Assembly: GCA_020848375.1 (NCBI GenBank)
Contig: JADLAF010000071.1
Location: forward strand, 1 to 39,775
DNA from: Ignavibacteriaceae bacterium
GTDB taxonomy: Bacteria; Bacteroidota; Ignavibacteria; Ignavibacteriales; Ignavibacteriaceae
Direction of reading: 5' to 3'
Length of the DNA: 39,775 bases
The position numbers and the translations under genes were made by a program. A model generated the notes under the pieces. It worked only from the letters and a program-made list of their open reading frames with translations. It made no database searches and was not told the origin of the DNA. Shown in pieces: positions 6,032 to 30,739 of this stretch; position 1 is the first letter of the stretch, and each line of letters begins with the position of its first letter.

Positions 6032-7488
6032 AACTTATAAAATTTATATTGCCTCTTTTACTAATATTAATCGCCGGATGCGGCGGAGATGAACCAGCCA
6101 AAACTACTGGCTCATCATATTATTGCCCCATGCATCCTGAAGTAACCTCTGACAGGCCAGGTGCCTGCCCGATCTGCCACATGGATCTGGTTCTAACAAC
6201 TGATACTGAGGGTGCTGAAAATATGATCTCAGGAGATTTCCGTCTTTCTAAAGATGATATTATAAAAGCCAACATCATCACCGCGGAAGTTAAAAAAGGG
6301 AGTATCTCCCCATCATTCAACTTCTCAGGAAAGATTGAAATTCCGGAAGATAACATCCGTATCGTATCGGCCCGATTTTCAGGACGCATTGAATCACTCA
6401 GCGCATCAAGCACCGGTCAGATGCTTTCAAAAGGTTCGCGACTGTTTACAAGTTACAGTGATGAGATGAGCAGATTGTTTAGTGAATACCGGTCGTTATA
6501 TAATTCAGGTTCTGCTGCAAATCAGAATCTGATTAAATCTATGGAAGATCGTCTTTTGCTCAAAGGATTAACCCATGAGCAGATTACCTCTCTCCGGTCA
6601 GCATCATCCGATATATTTGATGTGACTTCACCATTCGGCGGAGTAATTGTTGAAAAGTATATCAGCGAAGGCGAGTATTTCAGTGAAGGCACACGTTTAT
6701 TTAAGGTGGCAGACCTTTCCACAGTATGGGCGGTAGCTGATGTTTATACTGATGCTCTGCCATATATAAAAGTTGGCTCCGCCGCTGAAATCAAAACTGA
6801 ATCTACAGGATTTGTAACCCGTTCAAAAGTTTCATTTATTTCCCCCGTTGTTGACAATGCAAGCAGATCGGTTAAGGTGCGGGTGGCATTGAGCAATAAT
6901 GGCTCACTCAGGGCAAATGACTTTGTAACGGTTACATTTACAGCAGCACAGAAAACCGGTATCACTGTCCCCATTAATGCGGTTGTAAGAACCGGCAACG
7001 AAGATATTGTCTGGATCCAAACCGGTGATGAAACATTTAAACCCCGCCGGGTTCAATTAGGGCAAAGAACAGGTGAGTTTTACTCTGTTATATCCGGACT
7101 TTCGGAAGGTGATAAAATTGTCATCAACGGAGTATATCTCCTTGATTCAGAGTCACGCCTCCGGAATTTTACGGGCACAGATGATTCAGCTCTTCATTCA
7201 GGTCATACTGTTGCAAACCCCAAAAAGAAGAAAGAGGAAAAACCGGAAACTCACAATCATAAAGAAAAAGCTGAGTTTCTTGGAAAAACAAATGACGTCC
7301 CTTTTAATAAAGTCTGCCCTCTTCTGGGGGACGAAGTAGCACCTAACAGTCCTAAAGTGAGGTATAAAGGAAAAATTTGGGGATTCTGCTGCCCTGGTTG
7401 TGACGAAAAATTTATGTCTGACCCTGCTAAATATAGTCAGAATATCTCTGCAGACGGCAAATCATATCTCGGTGTATATGAAGACTGA
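6028..7488 (+). CDS. cusB: CusB-type periplasmic adaptor lipoprotein with two metal-binding domains
   Basis: Membrane fusion protein linking CusA to the outer-membrane channel, 486 aa. LIAGC (Cys18) is a lipobox, so the mature protein is probably lipid-anchored. Residues about 31-57 are a heavy-metal-binding domain (YYCPMHPE, then CPICHMDL: C33, H36, C47, C50, H51). Next come the barrel-sandwich and beta-barrel domains (GKIEIPEDNIRIVSARFSGR, VTSPFGGVIVEKYISEGEY, TVWAVADVYTDALPYIKVG). After a Lys-rich His-containing linker there is a C-terminal YHS/TRASH-like domain at about 426-486 (C430; GFCC at 452-455; C458). Many CusB homologues lack this last domain. A strong AGGAGG Shine-Dalgarno (6015-6020) lies 7 nt before the ATG. 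The same terminal domain recurs in the next gene. Confidence 0.9.
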   Translation: MKLIKFILPLLLILIAGCGGDEPAKTTGSSYYCPMHPEVTSDRPGACPICHMDLVLTTDTEGAENMISGDFRLSKDDIIKANIITAEVKKGSISPSFNFSGKIEIPEDNIRIVSARFSGRIESLSASSTGQMLSKGSRLFTSYSDEMSRLFSEYRSLYNSGSAANQNLIKSMEDRLLLKGLTHEQITSLRSASSDIFDVTSPFGGVIVEKYISEGEYFSEGTRLFKVADLSTVWAVADVYTDALPYIKVGSAAEIKTESTGFVTRSKVSFISPVVDNASRSVKVRVALSNNGSLRANDFVTVTFTAAQKTGITVPINAVVRTGNEDIVWIQTGDETFKPRRVQLGQRTGEFYSVISGLSEGDKIVINGVYLLDSESRLRNFTGTDDSALHSGHTVANPKKKKEEKPETHNHKEKAEFLGKTNDVPFNKVCPLLGDEVAPNSPKVRYKGKIWGFCCPGCDEKFMSDPAKYSQNISADGKSYLGVYED

Positions 7489-10706: not shown

Positions 10707-11900
10707 ATGAAAGAAATCTGGCGCCGTAACCTCACCACACTCTGGATGACCCAGTTTTTCGCAATGGTCGGGCTGAGTGCAGTTGTCCCTTTTCTGCCTC
10801 TTTTTGTCAGAGAATTGGGCATTCACAACCAGGATGAAGCGGTCACCTGGAGCGGCCTGGTTTTCGCAGCACCGTTTTTTGTAACAATTTTCATTACTCC
10901 CTTTTGGGGGGCTCTCGGAGATAAATTCGGGATGCGGTTGATGGTCATAAGGGCTGTTATTGGACTTGGGATAGCCCAAATTCTCATGTCTTTCGCCCAA
11001 ACCGTAGAACAGCTCTTTTTTTTCCGGATTTTGCAGGGGGCACTCAGCGGCTTTTACCCTTCTGCCATGACTCTGATTGCATCTAATACCCCCGAAGAAA
11101 AACAAGGTTATGCCCTTGGTGCATTTCAGTCAGCCAATACCTCCGGAAATATCTTCGGCCCGGTTATTGGGGGGTTCATCTCAGTAATCATCGGATTCAG
11201 AGCGGTATTCGTGGCGAGTGCAGCCATAAGTTTTCTCATGGCTATTGTACTTTATTTCACACTCAGAGAGGAAGTTCGACCACCAATAACTGCACCTAGG
11301 TTCAAATACCTTGACTATTGGAAGTTTGCGCTTTCTTCACGGTCGCTGATGATTTTGCTGACACTCATTTTTCTCGCTTCGTTTGGTGTCGCCTTTATAA
11401 GACCTCTCTTCGTTTTCTTTATCGAGACTATGATCAGCGACAGCAAAACTTTACCCGGGACCACCGGCGCGCTTTATAGTCTTATCGGTATCTTTTCAGC
11501 ATTTTCATCCTTTTGGTTTGGAAAAAGAATTGACACACACGGCTCTCGGCAGGTTCTCATCATCGGGACCATTCTGACTGGCGTCACCTACATAGCTCAC
11601 TTTTATGTTACTTCAGTCTATCTTCTTATTCCGGTCAGGATTTTGCTCGGACTTGGATATGGTGTCATCCTTCCCTCGTTATTTACCGGCATAAGTCTTT
11701 TTTCACCCGCTGAAAAGAAGGGGGGGCTTATGGGGATAGCATCAAGCGCCCAGACACTGGGGAACTTGATTGCTCCGCTTCTTTCCGGAGTTGCCGCCTC
11801 TCTTTTTGGTATCAGATCCGCCTTCTTTATTGCCGGTTTTGTTTTTCTGCTGATGCTGCCATTTATTAAAATGCAGGAACGTTTTAAGCAGGAGACATAG
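10707..11900 (+). CDS. MFS multidrug exporter, MdtG-like (DHA1)
   Basis: 397-aa inner-membrane protein with about 12 predicted helices. It shows MFS motif A (GALGDKFGMRLMVIR), an arginine-containing TM4 (FFRILQGALSGFYPSA) and antiporter motif C (SGNIFGPVIGGFI). The N-terminal WRRNL..LWMTQFFAMVGLSAVV and PFLPLFVRELGI resemble E. coli MdtG. It probably exports drugs or metabolites using the proton gradient; the substrate is unknown. It starts at ATG 10707 and ends with TAG. It is divergent from gltA, and no convincing terminator separates it from the VOC gene 69 bp downstream, so co-transcription is possible. Confidence 0.88.
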   Translation: MKEIWRRNLTTLWMTQFFAMVGLSAVVPFLPLFVRELGIHNQDEAVTWSGLVFAAPFFVTIFITPFWGALGDKFGMRLMVIRAVIGLGIAQILMSFAQTVEQLFFFRILQGALSGFYPSAMTLIASNTPEEKQGYALGAFQSANTSGNIFGPVIGGFISVIIGFRAVFVASAAISFLMAIVLYFTLREEVRPPITAPRFKYLDYWKFALSSRSLMILLTLIFLASFGVAFIRPLFVFFIETMISDSKTLPGTTGALYSLIGIFSAFSSFWFGKRIDTHGSRQVLIIGTILTGVTYIAHFYVTSVYLLIPVRILLGLGYGVILPSLFTGISLFSPAEKKGGLMGIASSAQTLGNLIAPLLSGVAASLFGIRSAFFIAGFVFLLMLPFIKMQERFKQET

Positions 11901-14653: not shown

Positions 14654-16329
14654 TTCATAAAATGAATTGGAAGTGAAGCCGAATGTTTCCCGCTGAACAT
14701 TCTGACAAAATAGATACCGCTCGGCAAACCGGACATTTCAATACGGAGTGTGTATTCGCCGGCCGTCTGATATCCGGCTGATAACACCCTAACCTGCTCT
14801 CCGCTTATTGAAAAAAGTGCCACTGTTATTTCTCCCGGAATATATACAGTGTACCTCAAAGATGCACTCCCGTTAAATGGATTAGGGTAGCTACCGGTTA
14901 TTCTAAAATCCATTTCACCTGCCGTTACTGATTCATCTGCATCACCGCTTACGGCCGTACCGCGCACCGGTACTCTAAATATTCCGTCATTGGTTGAGAG
15001 TAAAAGTTCTGTCTGATAATATCCCTGTACCGCTGGTGTAAATACTATCAGAATCGAATCAACTCCGCCAAATCCCACAGTATCATCATTAGTATATACC
15101 TTAAAGACTTCAGAACTCAGTGAACCTATCTGATATGTCAGAGTACCGCGTGAGGCATTAGCAATATACAACCACTGCGTACTGCTGTCACCCTGCTTTC
15201 CGACCCATTCATAACGCAGATGAATGCTGTCCGCTGAAAGCACTGCCTCCGGCTTATGTGGCGTGACAAGATTTGTCATCACGAAAGATGCGATACGGTC
15301 AAGGAATTCAGGATGATCAATAAGCGGGTTCCTCTTTCCCTGATACTGAGCGATTTTAGTGTTTCGTGCAGCTTCAGTAACAGAAACAGTATCAAACCTG
15401 CTCCACTCCTTCAGAACATTTTCCTGAACAGTATCCATATAGCCCTGATAATTCTGGTACCTTGTTATAAAATAAAACATCGCTCTGGCTGCATCCCCTT
15501 TATGAACGTCTCTCGGTTCAAAAACGGTTGCGTTCCTGTAGTCTAATCCTCTTTTGCTCCCCCCTACCTGCCAGTTGATACCAGAGACTACCTTACCGAA
15601 CGGGTAATTACCTCGTGTATTATTTGCGGAACTGTTTGTAGGGTAAAGGTGAAAAATATCTGAGCGCATTGGTTCTGCCTGACTGAAAGTACCCTGAGGC
15701 CAGGTATGTTCAGTGTCAAATCCCTGGTTCTGGGCAATTGTTCTTGTTGCTGCCTGAATCCGAATGCCGGTATAAACGCATTCGATGGTATCGCCAGCTT
15801 GTTTATCTATGTTCTCATACATCCGGTCACGACCGGTATTATAGCCCAGAGAAGTATGATTAAGTACCAATGAGTTCAGAGAGTTTTTAAGATCATTATC
15901 CCACTTATCAAAAGTAGCCGCATCGTACGTTACCAGAGTCGACCCCTCTCCCTTAAGCCGGACCGGAAAAGACTCACCTGTTTCAACTGAAGTGACAAAC
16001 AGAGTATTTTTGTAACTGATGTTTTGCGGCGGACTGAATGAAACCAAAACCTGAATCGAATCATAAATACCAAGAAAGAAATCCTCCTGCGAGACGGTAA
16101 ATCCAGCCCCTTTTTCAAAATTGATCTTAATGGATACAGGCAGCATTGACATATTCTTTATCAGCATATTTCGTGCACTGATTGACCTCACCGGCACTTT
16201 GCCGAAACTCATTTCGGACTGCGACACTAAAATTTGTCCTTCCGTTTTTACCCCATTGAGAAGGATTAAGACCATGATAAATTGAATGCTTCTGATTATC
16301 TTTTGCGCTTTATTTGTTTGATTTCTCAA
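14650..16329 (-). CDS. T9SS-exported endonuclease I with choice-of-anchor/Ig-like domains
   Basis: 559-aa secreted protein. Domains in order: a signal peptide after a basic N terminus (KAQKIIRSIQFIMVLILLNG); an ASH/choice-of-anchor D-like Ig fold (about 35-130, SEMSFGKVPVRSISARNMLI); an endonuclease I domain (about 135-350); a second Ig-like segment (about 355-460); and a T9SS type A sorting domain (SYPNPFNGSASLRY to the C-terminal FMK). Nuclease motifs are DTEHTWPQGTF, DIFHLYPTNSSANNTRGN and HKGDAARAMFYF. It should degrade DNA/RNA outside the cell or at its surface. The start is probably TTG 16329; the next ATG (16275) would leave a signal peptide without basic residues. It is divergent from 16349 and coupled to the hydrolase gene downstream. 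Confidence 0.87.
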   Translation of the reverse strand: MRNQTNKAQKIIRSIQFIMVLILLNGVKTEGQILVSQSEMSFGKVPVRSISARNMLIKNMSMLPVSIKINFEKGAGFTVSQEDFFLGIYDSIQVLVSFSPPQNISYKNTLFVTSVETGESFPVRLKGEGSTLVTYDAATFDKWDNDLKNSLNSLVLNHTSLGYNTGRDRMYENIDKQAGDTIECVYTGIRIQAATRTIAQNQGFDTEHTWPQGTFSQAEPMRSDIFHLYPTNSSANNTRGNYPFGKVVSGINWQVGGSKRGLDYRNATVFEPRDVHKGDAARAMFYFITRYQNYQGYMDTVQENVLKEWSRFDTVSVTEAARNTKIAQYQGKRNPLIDHPEFLDRIASFVMTNLVTPHKPEAVLSADSIHLRYEWVGKQGDSSTQWLYIANASRGTLTYQIGSLSSEVFKVYTNDDTVGFGGVDSILIVFTPAVQGYYQTELLLSTNDGIFRVPVRGTAVSGDADESVTAGEMDFRITGSYPNPFNGSASLRYTVYIPGEITVALFSISGEQVRVLSAGYQTAGEYTLRIEMSGLPSGIYFVRMFSGKHSASLPIHFMK

Positions 16330-26284: not shown

Positions 26285-26770
26285 ATGGGTTACTCACAGT
26301 TAATTCTATTATTAGGTTCTATGGTTCTGCTCGGACTTCTGGGTCTCTCCCAGAATAATTCTCTCAGCAGAAATACAGAATACAATATGTATAATCAGGC
26401 GCTATTTACCGGTACGGGCATTGCCCAGTCATTGCTTGAGGAGGTTTTAAGCCGTGAGTTTGATGAGGTAACGTTAACCCGAATGTTGACAATCCCTGAC
26501 TCATTGACCGCCCCATGGTCATTGGGTAAAGAATCCGGCGAAACTGTTGTCACTACATTTGATGATGTTGATGATTACCACAATTACACTAAAACTGACA
26601 GTCTGGATCTTTTCGGCAGCTTTAACATGCTGGTCACAGTCCATTATATCGTTTCTATGGACCCCGATACGAAAAGTGCAAGCAGAACTTTTATGAAGAG
26701 AGTTGATGTAAAAATGTATAACATATATATCGCTGATACCCTGACGGTAAACGGAATTAAGGCATACTAA
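26285..26770 (+). CDS. PilV/MshD-like minor pilin-type protein without standard prepilin leader
   Basis: 161-aa protein with one N-terminal hydrophobic helix (SQLILLLGSMVLLGLLGLSQ) directly after MGY. The following amphipathic helix has ALFTGTGIAQSLLEEVLSRE, much like the 'LAQ.LLEE' helix of PilV/GspI-type pilins. FDDVDDYHNY is the signature seen in MshD/PilV-type pilins. The canonical prepilin site (G then FTLIE, with Glu at +5) is missing; the only possible leader is MG. No specific family was recognised with certainty. It is first of three tightly spaced genes (4 bp to the next) and starts at ATG 26285. A role in a pilus- or pseudopilus-like surface structure is inferred. Confidence 0.6.
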   Translation: MGYSQLILLLGSMVLLGLLGLSQNNSLSRNTEYNMYNQALFTGTGIAQSLLEEVLSREFDEVTLTRMLTIPDSLTAPWSLGKESGETVVTTFDDVDDYHNYTKTDSLDLFGSFNMLVTVHYIVSMDPDTKSASRTFMKRVDVKMYNIYIADTLTVNGIKAY

Positions 26771-26774
26771 AGTA

Positions 26775-27341
26775 ATGGATCAGCTAATTACCCTGCTTGG
26801 CACCTATTTCATCGGCGGATATATAACACTTACCGTGCTGGTTATGAACTTTACCATGAGCTCGAAGATTACAGAACTGGTAATTGACAAATTCAGCCAG
26901 CAGAGTGCACTCACCACTGCTCAGACTCTGGAGTTTGATCTTTACAAAATTGGTTATGGTTCAACCGGCGATATTATCCTTGTGGCTGATTCTACCCGGC
27001 TGCGTTTTGTGTCTGATATTGACAATAACGGCGCTGTTGATACAATTTTTTATTATAAAGGTGCTGTTTCTGAGATGAGCACTACCGCCAATCCGCATGA
27101 CTTTAAGATATACCGCAGAATTAATACCACTACATCAATAGTTGGTTTCGCAACTGATTTTACGTTTACTTATCTGGACGAAACAACAGCTACCCTCAAC
27201 TACGGTTCTCTCAACAGCCAGGCAAACAGAAACAATATCCGTTTCGTTACAGTTTATTTAAGGACTGAGTCCCCTGATTCAGTAAGTTTCGGATACTCCC
27301 CTGTTGAGTGGAGAAAACAAATTTTACCGAAGAATTTATAA
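26775..27341 (+). CDS. PilW-like minor pilin-type protein
   Basis: 188-aa protein with an N-terminal membrane helix (LGTYFIGGYITLTVLVMN), then a helix ending in QTLEFDLYKIGYGS, which resembles the 'l..DLr.aGyg' segment of PilW/GspJ-type pilins. A mainly beta C-terminal domain follows, including a DIDNNGAVDTIFYYKG strand pair. There is no Gly/Phe prepilin cleavage site and no Glu5. It sits 4 bp after the PilV-like gene and 11 bp before the PilX-like gene, the V-W-X order of minor-pilin operons. The family assignment rests on context plus these helix motifs and is not certain. Confidence 0.55.
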   Translation: MDQLITLLGTYFIGGYITLTVLVMNFTMSSKITELVIDKFSQQSALTTAQTLEFDLYKIGYGSTGDIILVADSTRLRFVSDIDNNGAVDTIFYYKGAVSEMSTTANPHDFKIYRRINTTTSIVGFATDFTFTYLDETTATLNYGSLNSQANRNNIRFVTVYLRTESPDSVSFGYSPVEWRKQILPKNL

Positions 27342-27352
27342 GAGATTAAGTT

Positions 27353-28477
27353 ATGGGTTATACTACAATAATATATATAACTGGTTCTGTGATGCTATTT
27401 AGCATTATGTCCCTGAATGTCAATACAGTTGTTGGCGATCAGCTTTCTCAGTCAGTCAGTTATTATGAGGAAGTTCAGGTTAGAAATCTGTGCAACTCAG
27501 TTACCGAGATGCTGGCTTCATCAGTGTCATCAGATCCGAGCTACCGCAAGAACAGTTATTCAAATCTCTCCCTCTTTAGCGGCTCAGCATATTACCGCGT
27601 GGTGGACACCGTTGTCTCAGCAGATACCCTTGTAAAAATTGAAGTCATTGGATATTTTGGAACAACTCCTAAAGTAACCACCTCTTATTTTTCTGCCCAG
27701 GACACCGAACCTGAACTCCCCCCCCAGTTTAAGTACGCAGTATCCTCACAAGGGAAGCTGAGTCTGGGAGGAAATTCAAAAGTTGTAGATGATGGTGACC
27801 CGACTCTGAATGCGGATGTTTTTGTAACCGATTTAGCACTGGCTGGTAATGCAAATATCAAAGGTTTTGTAAGTTATACCTCTTCTTTTTCGGGCAACAC
27901 AAGCAAGATTACTCCAAACTCAAATCCTTCCGGTCTTCCGGTGACAAGTCATGTCAGCAGTATTTCTGTTCCAACCTTTAAGGCAGAAGACCATCTCTCA
28001 AAGGCAACAGTTAAATACTTTTCGGATGTTACTGTAAAGAACAATACCCTTACTTTAGGCACTAAGGCAAATCCGGCAATTGTTTATATATCAGGGAATC
28101 TCAAACTGCAGGCCAACTCTAAAATAAACGGTTACGGAATGATTATCGTTACAGGGAATGTTGAAATGAACGGAAACACAACATTCGGAACCAATGACCC
28201 GAATGTGAGCAGTCTTGGGATTTACGCAAACGGCAACATTACAGCGAGCGGTAACAACACGTATTATGGCCAGATGTACGCAAATGGAAATATCGAACTT
28301 TCTGGTAATGCAAGCATTCATGGCAGCGTATCAGCAAAAGGAAATATTGAGATGTCCGGTAACAATACCATTGCCTATAAAAAAGGGAATGTTGATTTAA
28401 CAGAAGAAATTTGGGAAACCACAGGCGGTGGAGGTAATTCTATCGAACGGGTCGCCCGGCGACTTTATTATGAATAA
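27353..28477 (+). CDS. PilX-like protein with beta-helical repeat domain
   Basis: 374-aa protein. It starts MGYTTIIYITGSVMLFSIM, a membrane helix with the same MGY opening as the first cassette gene. A helix and a small beta segment follow (about 30-115). Residues about 130-345 form a Gly-Asn-rich repeat region with recurring 'GN(I/L/V)...GN' turns (ISGNLKLQANSKINGYG, VTGNVEMNGNTTF, ANGNITASGN, ANGNIELSGNASIHG, AKGNIEMSGNNTI), as expected for a right-handed beta helix. This layout resembles PilX-like proteins with a C-terminal DUF7305-type polymer-forming domain. It ends the cassette and is followed by a strong terminator. It could be a surface-exposed tip or adhesive subunit. Confidence 0.6.
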   Translation: MGYTTIIYITGSVMLFSIMSLNVNTVVGDQLSQSVSYYEEVQVRNLCNSVTEMLASSVSSDPSYRKNSYSNLSLFSGSAYYRVVDTVVSADTLVKIEVIGYFGTTPKVTTSYFSAQDTEPELPPQFKYAVSSQGKLSLGGNSKVVDDGDPTLNADVFVTDLALAGNANIKGFVSYTSSFSGNTSKITPNSNPSGLPVTSHVSSISVPTFKAEDHLSKATVKYFSDVTVKNNTLTLGTKANPAIVYISGNLKLQANSKINGYGMIIVTGNVEMNGNTTFGTNDPNVSSLGIYANGNITASGNNTYYGQMYANGNIELSGNASIHGSVSAKGNIEMSGNNTIAYKKGNVDLTEEIWETTGGGGNSIERVARRLYYE

Positions 28478-28606: not shown

Positions 28607-30244
28607 ATGATGCGACAATTTATTATAACTGCATTTCTGCTCTTTGCTGCAGAAGTATTAAGCCAGACGCTCCCCCTGCCTGCCAGACCTGCTAATGCTC
28701 TGTCCGGAAGTCAGATGGTAACGCTGCTCACACCGCTAAATTTAGATGCAAGAGAAAATGAGATTTATAACCAGGTTTTAAGCGGCAATGTACCTGATTT
28801 TATAAGAAACCTGACACAGGTTACCGCTTCAGTCAGCGGGCGAAGTGTGAGTTATTTTGTAATACCAGAATATCTTGCGCTCGGTTCAAATCAGGACTAT
28901 TTCCTCATCCCTATGACCCCCTTGCTGGCTCAAAGAATTGCAAACGCTCTTAACTGTGTGCTCCCCACAAAACGGATGGTGGATCAGATATATACTGCCT
29001 CTTCCTGCAAACTGCGTCCCCAACCGATTCCGCCAACCGCCCAGATGACTACCATACCGGTATTCAAAGATCATAACGATTCAGTCAAATCACTCCGGCT
29101 GCCGCTGCTGAATCAGTATCCTTTTGGCACATTGGTCGGAGGGACAAAGAAGGACGTGATCATTTCCAACAGAATTTATACCAATCTTAATCCCAACACA
29201 CCAAAACCCGTCGTCATCTACGGATGGCATCAGTTAAACGGAAGCCCCATTCAGCCGGTATATAATGGTCATGGTGAAACTTACGCTGACTACAGTCACG
29301 GAATACGCCTGGTGCTTGATTCTTTAATCGTTGACGGTACTTACAAAAAATTCGCTCCTCTGCTCTCTGATGCAGTTCTCTCGGTTGTGATAAGTGATGA
29401 AGGAGTTATCAGCAAACCATATTATACCCTCTCCGGTTCAACTACTCCCCAACCTTCAGTTTTTACTGTAACTTCATTCTCCGGATCGCAGCTTTTGGTT
29501 AAAGCTCCTTTTTCTCCATCTTCAATATATAAAGCATTTTACGGTTCTTCGCCTGCGGGATTGACTGACTCATCAGATTCCTTTACCGATTCCGTCCTCA
29601 TTAGCGGACTCACGGAGGGCAGTATATATTATGTACACATCAGGGCCGCCGGACAGGGGGGGTACTCCCCATTGAGTGAAGTGCTTGCTGCGGTACCTTC
29701 AACTTCGCCGAATTACCTGCTCATAGTAAACGGTTTTGACCGTGCTGTTACAGGCAATACAAATGATTTTGTTAAAATGCACGGTCCGGCTTTTCTTAAT
29801 GCAGGACTACGTTTTGACGGCTGCACTAATGAAGCAGTTACAATTGGAATGATTTCACTTACTTCCTATAAGATTACGGACTACATACTCGGTACAGAAA
29901 GTACTGCGAATGAAACATTCAGCACTGAGGAACAAACTAAAGTTATTGAGTTCCTGAGGGGAGGAGGATATTTTTTTTGCTCAGGTTCTGAGATTGCCTG
30001 GGACCTGGATAACCGCGGAAGTGCATCTGATAAGGATTTCATCCGTCTCTATCTTAAGACACAGTATTTAAACGATGCTCCCGGAGGTCTCGCCAGTACA
30101 TACTACACCGCATCCGGCTTCCCCGGAGAAATTTTCAACGGAGTTAATAATATAACTTTTGACAACGGCACTCACGGCACTTTTAACGTGGGGTATCCCG
30201 ATGTCCTTCAGGGGATAAACGGGGGCACAAATGTAATGCAATAG
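28607..30244 (+). CDS. Secreted Fn3-containing protein, 5' part, ended by premature TAG
   Basis: 545-aa exported protein. It has a signal peptide (MMRQFIITAFLLFAAEVLSQ). An N-terminal domain of unknown function (about 25-265) includes VIYGWHQLNGSPIQPVYNGH and ETYADYSHGIRL. A fibronectin type III-like domain follows (about 275-365). The next domain (about 370-545) has YLLIVNGFDRAV, STANETFSTEEQ and FLRGGGYFFCSGSEIAWDLD, as in Bacteroidota secreted proteins often labelled xanthan lyase-like. The frame stops at TAG 30242-30244 right after GGTNVMQ, but the same frame continues open into a matching domain end and T9SS tail (next entry). The original protein was probably about 703 aa. As it stands the product lacks its export tail. 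In-frame ATG 28496 lies in the preceding terminator hairpin, so it is not used. Confidence 0.75.
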   Translation: MMRQFIITAFLLFAAEVLSQTLPLPARPANALSGSQMVTLLTPLNLDARENEIYNQVLSGNVPDFIRNLTQVTASVSGRSVSYFVIPEYLALGSNQDYFLIPMTPLLAQRIANALNCVLPTKRMVDQIYTASSCKLRPQPIPPTAQMTTIPVFKDHNDSVKSLRLPLLNQYPFGTLVGGTKKDVIISNRIYTNLNPNTPKPVVIYGWHQLNGSPIQPVYNGHGETYADYSHGIRLVLDSLIVDGTYKKFAPLLSDAVLSVVISDEGVISKPYYTLSGSTTPQPSVFTVTSFSGSQLLVKAPFSPSSIYKAFYGSSPAGLTDSSDSFTDSVLISGLTEGSIYYVHIRAAGQGGYSPLSEVLAAVPSTSPNYLLIVNGFDRAVTGNTNDFVKMHGPAFLNAGLRFDGCTNEAVTIGMISLTSYKITDYILGTESTANETFSTEEQTKVIEFLRGGGYFFCSGSEIAWDLDNRGSASDKDFIRLYLKTQYLNDAPGGLASTYYTASGFPGEIFNGVNNITFDNGTHGTFNVGYPDVLQGINGGTNVMQ

Positions 30245-30718
30245 AGCAGTGTTACTTCCCAATTTGCCGCTACCGCTTATGCAGGAATGCTCCCCGGCGG
30301 ATCTCTGCCTGGAAGAGTTATAGTTATGGGCTTCCCCTTTGAGGCAGTCTATCCGGAGGCAAAACGGAATGAAGTTGCTGGTAAAATTGCACAATTTTTT
30401 GGGACATCAACAGATATTTTCTCCGATGAATTATCAGACTCCCCATCCGGATATTCAATCAGCTCTTATCCGAATCCTTTTAATCCAACGGTTACCATAG
30501 AGGTAAAAGTTGATGTGGAGGGATATTACGCAGTTACGATATATACCATGCTCGGAGAGGTGGCTGATCTGCTCTATGATGGATTTCTGCTGAAAGGTGA
30601 CTATTCCTATCAATGGAATCCATTTAACGGCACAACCAGATCACCTTCAGGAGTTTACATAGCAACATTGAGCGGAGATGGTATCCTTAAAACCCAAAAA
30701 ATGTGTTTAATAAAATAA
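30245..30718 (+). pseudogene. 3' part of the same gene: domain end plus T9SS sorting domain
   Basis: Same reading frame as the upstream part, directly after the TAG. It completes the previous domain (SSVTSQFAATAYAGM, then GRVIVMGFPFEAV, the usual end of that domain) and adds a T9SS type A sorting domain (SSYPNPFNPTVTIEV to PSGVYIATLSGDG and a final KMCLIK). The first usable ATG is at 30287. That short ORF would have no signal peptide, so it cannot be exported on its own and is best read as the detached tail of a broken gene. Confidence 0.75.
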
Positions 30719-30739
30719 TTTATCCCTTTCTGTGAATCT

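Follow-up and report, generated by a model that had tools for sequence, protein, structure and literature searches.

Does the single TAG at positions 30242 to 30244 (+ strand) mark a gene that has been broken, a gene whose stop is read through, or a gene that is intact in the living organism and interrupted only in its assembled sequence? The codon lies within a gene at 28607 to 30718 (+) for a multidomain protein predicted to be exported by the type IX secretion system (T9SS). The genome is a draft from an Ignavibacteriaceae bacterium (assembly GCA_020848375.1; 3.46 Mb, 259 contigs, 88.75% complete) that is presumably metagenome assembled, and its closest relatives in the set of named genomes compared are mostly Ignavibacteriales and allied metagenome-assembled genomes (MAGs). 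The window, by which we mean the whole stretch of DNA analyzed, is contig C71 of this draft, with a length of 39,775 nucleotides. The reference for comparison was a closed, single-contig genome of 4.21 Mb from the same genus (G001), with which the window is collinear over part of 3.205 to 3.265 Mb.

The interrupted frame and its protein

Translation of 28607 to 30718 yielded 545 codons, the TAG, a further 157 codons, and a terminal TAA (703 codons plus stop), confirming the preliminary description of a frame open apart from this one codon. Position 28607 is a sensible choice of start: in the draft the frame stays open as far back as 28496, but the closed relative has two TAA codons in that upstream stretch. 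The orthologue in the closed relative sits in the same place, is full length and 80% identical, and has Tyr (TAT) at codon 546, the codon occupied by the TAG. Because this orthologue is unbroken over 693 residues, the sequences on both sides of the TAG can be assigned to one protein, as had been proposed, and the fold model would place the stop inside a single domain. Upstream of the broken gene, the window carries three small genes at 26285 to 28477 that are 66 to 82% identical to those of the closed relative; the third matches DUF7305 and DUF2572.

The protein begins with a probable signal peptide (28607 to 28672, +; MMRQFIITAFLLFAAEVLSQ, cut near Q/T), which was read from the sequence and has a predicted helix at residues 3 to 17 in the fold model (mean pLDDT, 83.9; pTM, 0.52). 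A conserved N-terminal domain follows (28679 to 29431, +; approximately residues 25 to 275 in the protein alignment, A1). It belongs to no Pfam family and also occurs alone in other phyla, at loci matching only about residues 1 to 290. Sequence and structure matches then indicate a fibronectin type III-like domain (29447 to 29701, +; approximately residues 281 to 365). The domain interrupted by the stop (29714 to 30406, +; approximately residues 370 to 600) appears Rossmann-like and similar to ThuA and class I glutamine amidotransferase folds, based on the fold model and on Foldseek rows for 2gk3 and GH42. Foldseek returned partial matches to fibronectin domains and weak ones to structures with a glutamine-amidotransferase-like fold, such as 2gk3 (target-normalized TM, 0.57). 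A ThuA match was found in 1 of the 37 aligned members, and a sequence search of solved structures recovered fibronectin-like domains and T9SS tails only. Residue 546 is modeled as the end of a strand (541 to 546), after which strands 553 to 561 and 568 to 574 and helix 584 to 599 would complete the same domain ahead of the tail.

The end of the linker and a T9SS type A sorting tail lie downstream of the stop (30443 to 30715, +). The post-stop part of the protein scored 26.9 bits against TIGR04183, above the cutoff of 23, and 23 bits against Pfam PF18962, below the cutoff of 27, and on the former score the sorting tail first read from the sequence holds. A total of 150 T9SS tail matches were scored in the draft, which suggests that the T9SS machinery is present. 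With its apparent signal peptide, C-terminal tail, and domain order common to 37 aligned members, the protein resembles T9SS type A cargo (TIGR04183/PF18962); it differs in that its tail lies behind a stop codon.

Codon 546 and the condition of the gene

An aromatic residue, probably Tyr, had been predicted at the position of the TAG, and the homologues agree. Among 77 tblastn rows spanning codon 546, 67 had Tyr (50 TAT and 17 TAC), 4 had Phe, and 6 had other residues. Collapse of identical sequences left 67 distinct homologues, with Tyr in 59, Phe in 3, and misalignment in 5; in three of these five, a Tyr was found 1 to 3 columns away, and the other two were poorly aligned. The corresponding column of alignment A1 was likewise near invariant, with Tyr in 35/36 and Phe in 1/36. 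A stop at codon 546 was found in 0 of the 77 rows and 0 of the 67 distinct homologues, which makes the TAG private to the draft. The comparison of orthologues proposed in the preliminary description thus turned up none that end at this position. One homologue from another draft genome (L038, position 5473) has a lone TAA of its own elsewhere, in the sorting tail.

Amino acid identity to the closed relative was 0.81 before the TAG and 0.79 after it. At sites conserved among 7 close outgroups, the draft alone deviated 13 times and the closed relative alone 17 times; with all 35 other members as the outgroup, the counts at conserved columns were 7 and 2, respectively (small numbers). No further decay, in the form of additional stops, frameshifts, or relaxed change, was seen in the gene, a condition that a very young pseudogene would share. 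The lack of clear decay implies that the stop is either very young or not real.

The 3′ part of the gene has a feature of its own, a patch at 30395 to 30733 (+) that is ~90% identical to the closed relative at the DNA level, compared with saturation at synonymous sites in the rest of the gene. The excess of synonymous identity in the tail over the gene body was larger in the broken gene than in any other of the 265 genes compared, 29 of which are tail genes. A clear excess was found in about 8 of the 29 tail genes, and the second largest belonged to the gene on contig C117, the other T9SS gene bearing a stop. Over all 29 tail genes, there was no difference from the C termini of other genes (P = 0.52). 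The patch looks like the result of a recent exchange of the tail module between species or of constraint at the DNA level.

TAG as a stop codon in the draft genome

TAG is in regular use as a gene end in the draft (56 of 329 genes). Within the window, 2 of 29 open reading frames (ORFs) end in TAG, at 11900 and 25979; their orthologues in the closed relative terminate two codons farther on and at the identical codon, respectively, confirming the initial view that both are genuine gene ends. RF1 is present (532.7 bits), and the TIGR02367 profile for PylS had no match in the draft. Tyr codons occur at 28.4 (TAT) and 13.3 (TAC) per 1,000, so that a TAG reassigned to Tyr should have produced many more internal TAG codons than were found. 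Two internal TAG codons in 346 orthologue pairs are the sole point in favor of an organism-wide reading of TAG as sense, through reassignment or general suppression, whether as Tyr, pyrrolysine, or another residue. We consider this highly improbable, and the early judgment against a change of code is upheld by the TAG-terminated genes, RF1, and the lack of a PylS match.

Partial read-through of the TAG, in which only some of the product would receive the end of the domain and the export tail, also seems improbable. As read-through would need, the sequence 3′ of the TAG remains undamaged and in the same frame, and both TAG cases in the assembly (on contigs C71 and C77) fall at near-invariant Tyr codons. 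That coincidence would fit insertion of Tyr, but it is also mostly expected from T-to-G miscalls, which are common on some sequencers. An organism that inserts Tyr at some UAG codons, with leaky UAG setting the share of T9SS cargo that gets the export tail, strikes us as a long shot. No tRNA with the anticodon CTA (amber suppressor) was found among 40 candidates, 39 of which were typed by ARAGORN and the last of which is a degenerate initiator-tRNA copy; in a genome that is 88.75% complete, this absence is not proof. RNA 3′ of the TAG folded no better than shuffled sequences (z = 0.95, 1.10, and 0.14). The presence of RF1 counts against read-through as well. In addition, a product ending at residue 545 would be cut inside the modeled domain, lacking its last two strands and last helix, and so does not resemble a functional alternative form.

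In-frame stops under purifying selection have been argued to be common in bacteria (Belinky et al. 2021, PMC7918605), and the TAG described here is similar to such stops in lying inside a gene with flanks that look constrained. In that study, only stops common to at least two genomes are counted. Such recurrence was not observed for this TAG, which none of the 67 distinct homologues shares. A search of an open-access library found no paper on stop codon read-through together with type IX secretion.

Separately, the draft has a second initiator-tRNA copy on contig C110 (81136 to 81220; positions 1501 to 1585 of locus L321), in which a palindrome takes the place of the D arm and which adjoins an intact copy. 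Several partial initiator-tRNA copies occur in the same neighborhood of the closed relative (C1:3620135 to 3620691).

Lone stops across the assembly and the origin of the TAG

ORFs of the closed relative were compared with ~1.08 Mb of the 3.46-Mb draft, giving 346 orthologue pairs and 136,021 aligned residues, and the reverse comparison gave 352 pairs over 1.29 Mb of the 4.21-Mb relative; both spans include small overlaps, and the sample is biased in that 40 of the draft stretches compared were picked for carrying T9SS tails. Stops were present in 10 rows from the draft, among which were four clear lone internal stops (two TAG and two TAA): the TAG at 30242 to 30244 of the window, a TAG at C77:27120, a TAA at C117:4474, and a TAA at C137:2990. 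Frameshifts in this direction were limited to one weak, doubtful row in a 110-residue ORF. In comparison, the closed relative had 11 rows with a stop, all within 42 codons of the ORF start or 6 codons of its end, and two frameshift-like rows; no clear lone internal stop was found in its 352 pairs, with one ambiguous case (codon 36 of 177). A strict positional count (stops inside 10 to 90% of the ORF) would give about five in the draft versus one in the relative.

Several other candidates were set aside. Stops on C110 (two), C47, C221, and C35 and the first of those on C77 were at the first or last ORF codons and were treated as start or end differences. A TGA pair at window positions 16283 and 16319 was dropped because the longest ORF of the closed relative extends back across a divergent neighbor. 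A coding-potential scan for genes split by one stop in the same frame was uninformative (8 candidates in the draft and 7 in the relative); since it missed the TAG at 30242 to 30244, its result says nothing.

The other three stops differ in setting. The gene on C77 (locus L316, stop at position 7120) is the main inositol monophosphatase (PF00459), with some match in 31/31 genomes searched; the residue at its stop is Tyr in 10/11 relatives and Phe in 1/11, and no internal stop was found among the listed homologue rows outside the draft. The gene on C117 (locus L288) encodes a T9SS cargo protein with a lone TAA. The gene on C137 (locus L279), which we take to resemble a two-domain acyltransferase with the TAA perhaps in its linker, is intact in close relatives and is divided into two ORFs in genome G011. 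Its TAA stands against GCT in the closed relative, in a column that varies among relatives, and this difference at all three bases in a variable column makes it less like a single miscall. T9SS-tail genes make up 30 of the 346 pairs and carry 2 of the 4 lone stops, a distribution that either chance or relaxed selection on cargo genes that can be lost could account for.

The explanation that we favor, with about an even chance of being right, is a wrong consensus base in the draft assembly and a gene that is intact in the living organism. On this account, a single miscalled consensus base replaced a conserved Tyr codon with TAG, and the cell would make the full-length protein. Its signal peptide would direct export by Sec, and its C-terminal tail, the basis for proposing T9SS export, would direct sorting by that system. 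A miscall is favored over a mutation as the probable source because the stop is private to the draft, the rest of the gene is undamaged, and the assembly has other lone stops. The same choice is favored by stops that are nearly free of frameshifts and of mixed kinds, by the occurrence of one in a widely kept gene, and by the fragmented state of the draft. This pattern is like that of the spurious pseudogenes of Cooley and Wright (2024, PMC11017572), i.e., lone stops in otherwise intact genes of drafts with few frameshifts. According to that paper, many such stops are assembly errors, and poor reads chiefly increase the number of internal stops, not that of frameshifts; their evidence came from reassembly of reads, whereas ours comes from the consensus sequence alone. 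A topic search of the open-access library for MAGs with premature stops and assembly errors gave no paper. The 35-outgroup counts (7 versus 2) and the three-base difference on C137 weigh against a miscall, and four clear stops versus none is not decisive, with a chance expectation of (346/698)^4, or ~0.06 (one-sided, calculated manually).

A real and very recent nonsense mutation, present as a young pseudogene or a population polymorphism, is a serious contender at somewhat under even chance, and a new nonsense mutation in cargo that the cell can spare would explain the data almost as well as a miscall does. The product would end at residue 545, without the end of the domain and the sorting tail, and would misfold or stay periplasmic. 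Only some of the 59 genomes searched have a full-length relative, indicating that members of the order can do without the gene; the gene on C117 is a second T9SS gene with a lone stop, and a young mutation would leave the rest of the gene undecayed, as seen. These points are countered by the lone stop on C77, which strikes a gene that nearly every relative retains, and by the near lack of frameshifts alongside the stops, which is unusual in ordinary gene decay.

Of the three options raised initially (a fresh break, read-through, or an error), the analysis leaves an error or a very recent nonsense mutation, and read-through gained no positive support. Most likely the stop came about through a miscalled base or a mutation of very recent date, and not through some novel form of gene control. 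The main lesson is one of caution: for a lone stop in a draft environmental genome, neither read-through nor gene loss should be claimed until the reads have been examined and the frequency of such stops elsewhere in that assembly has been taken into account. A stop that was both real and leaky could hypothetically provide a simple switch between retained and exported forms of the protein.
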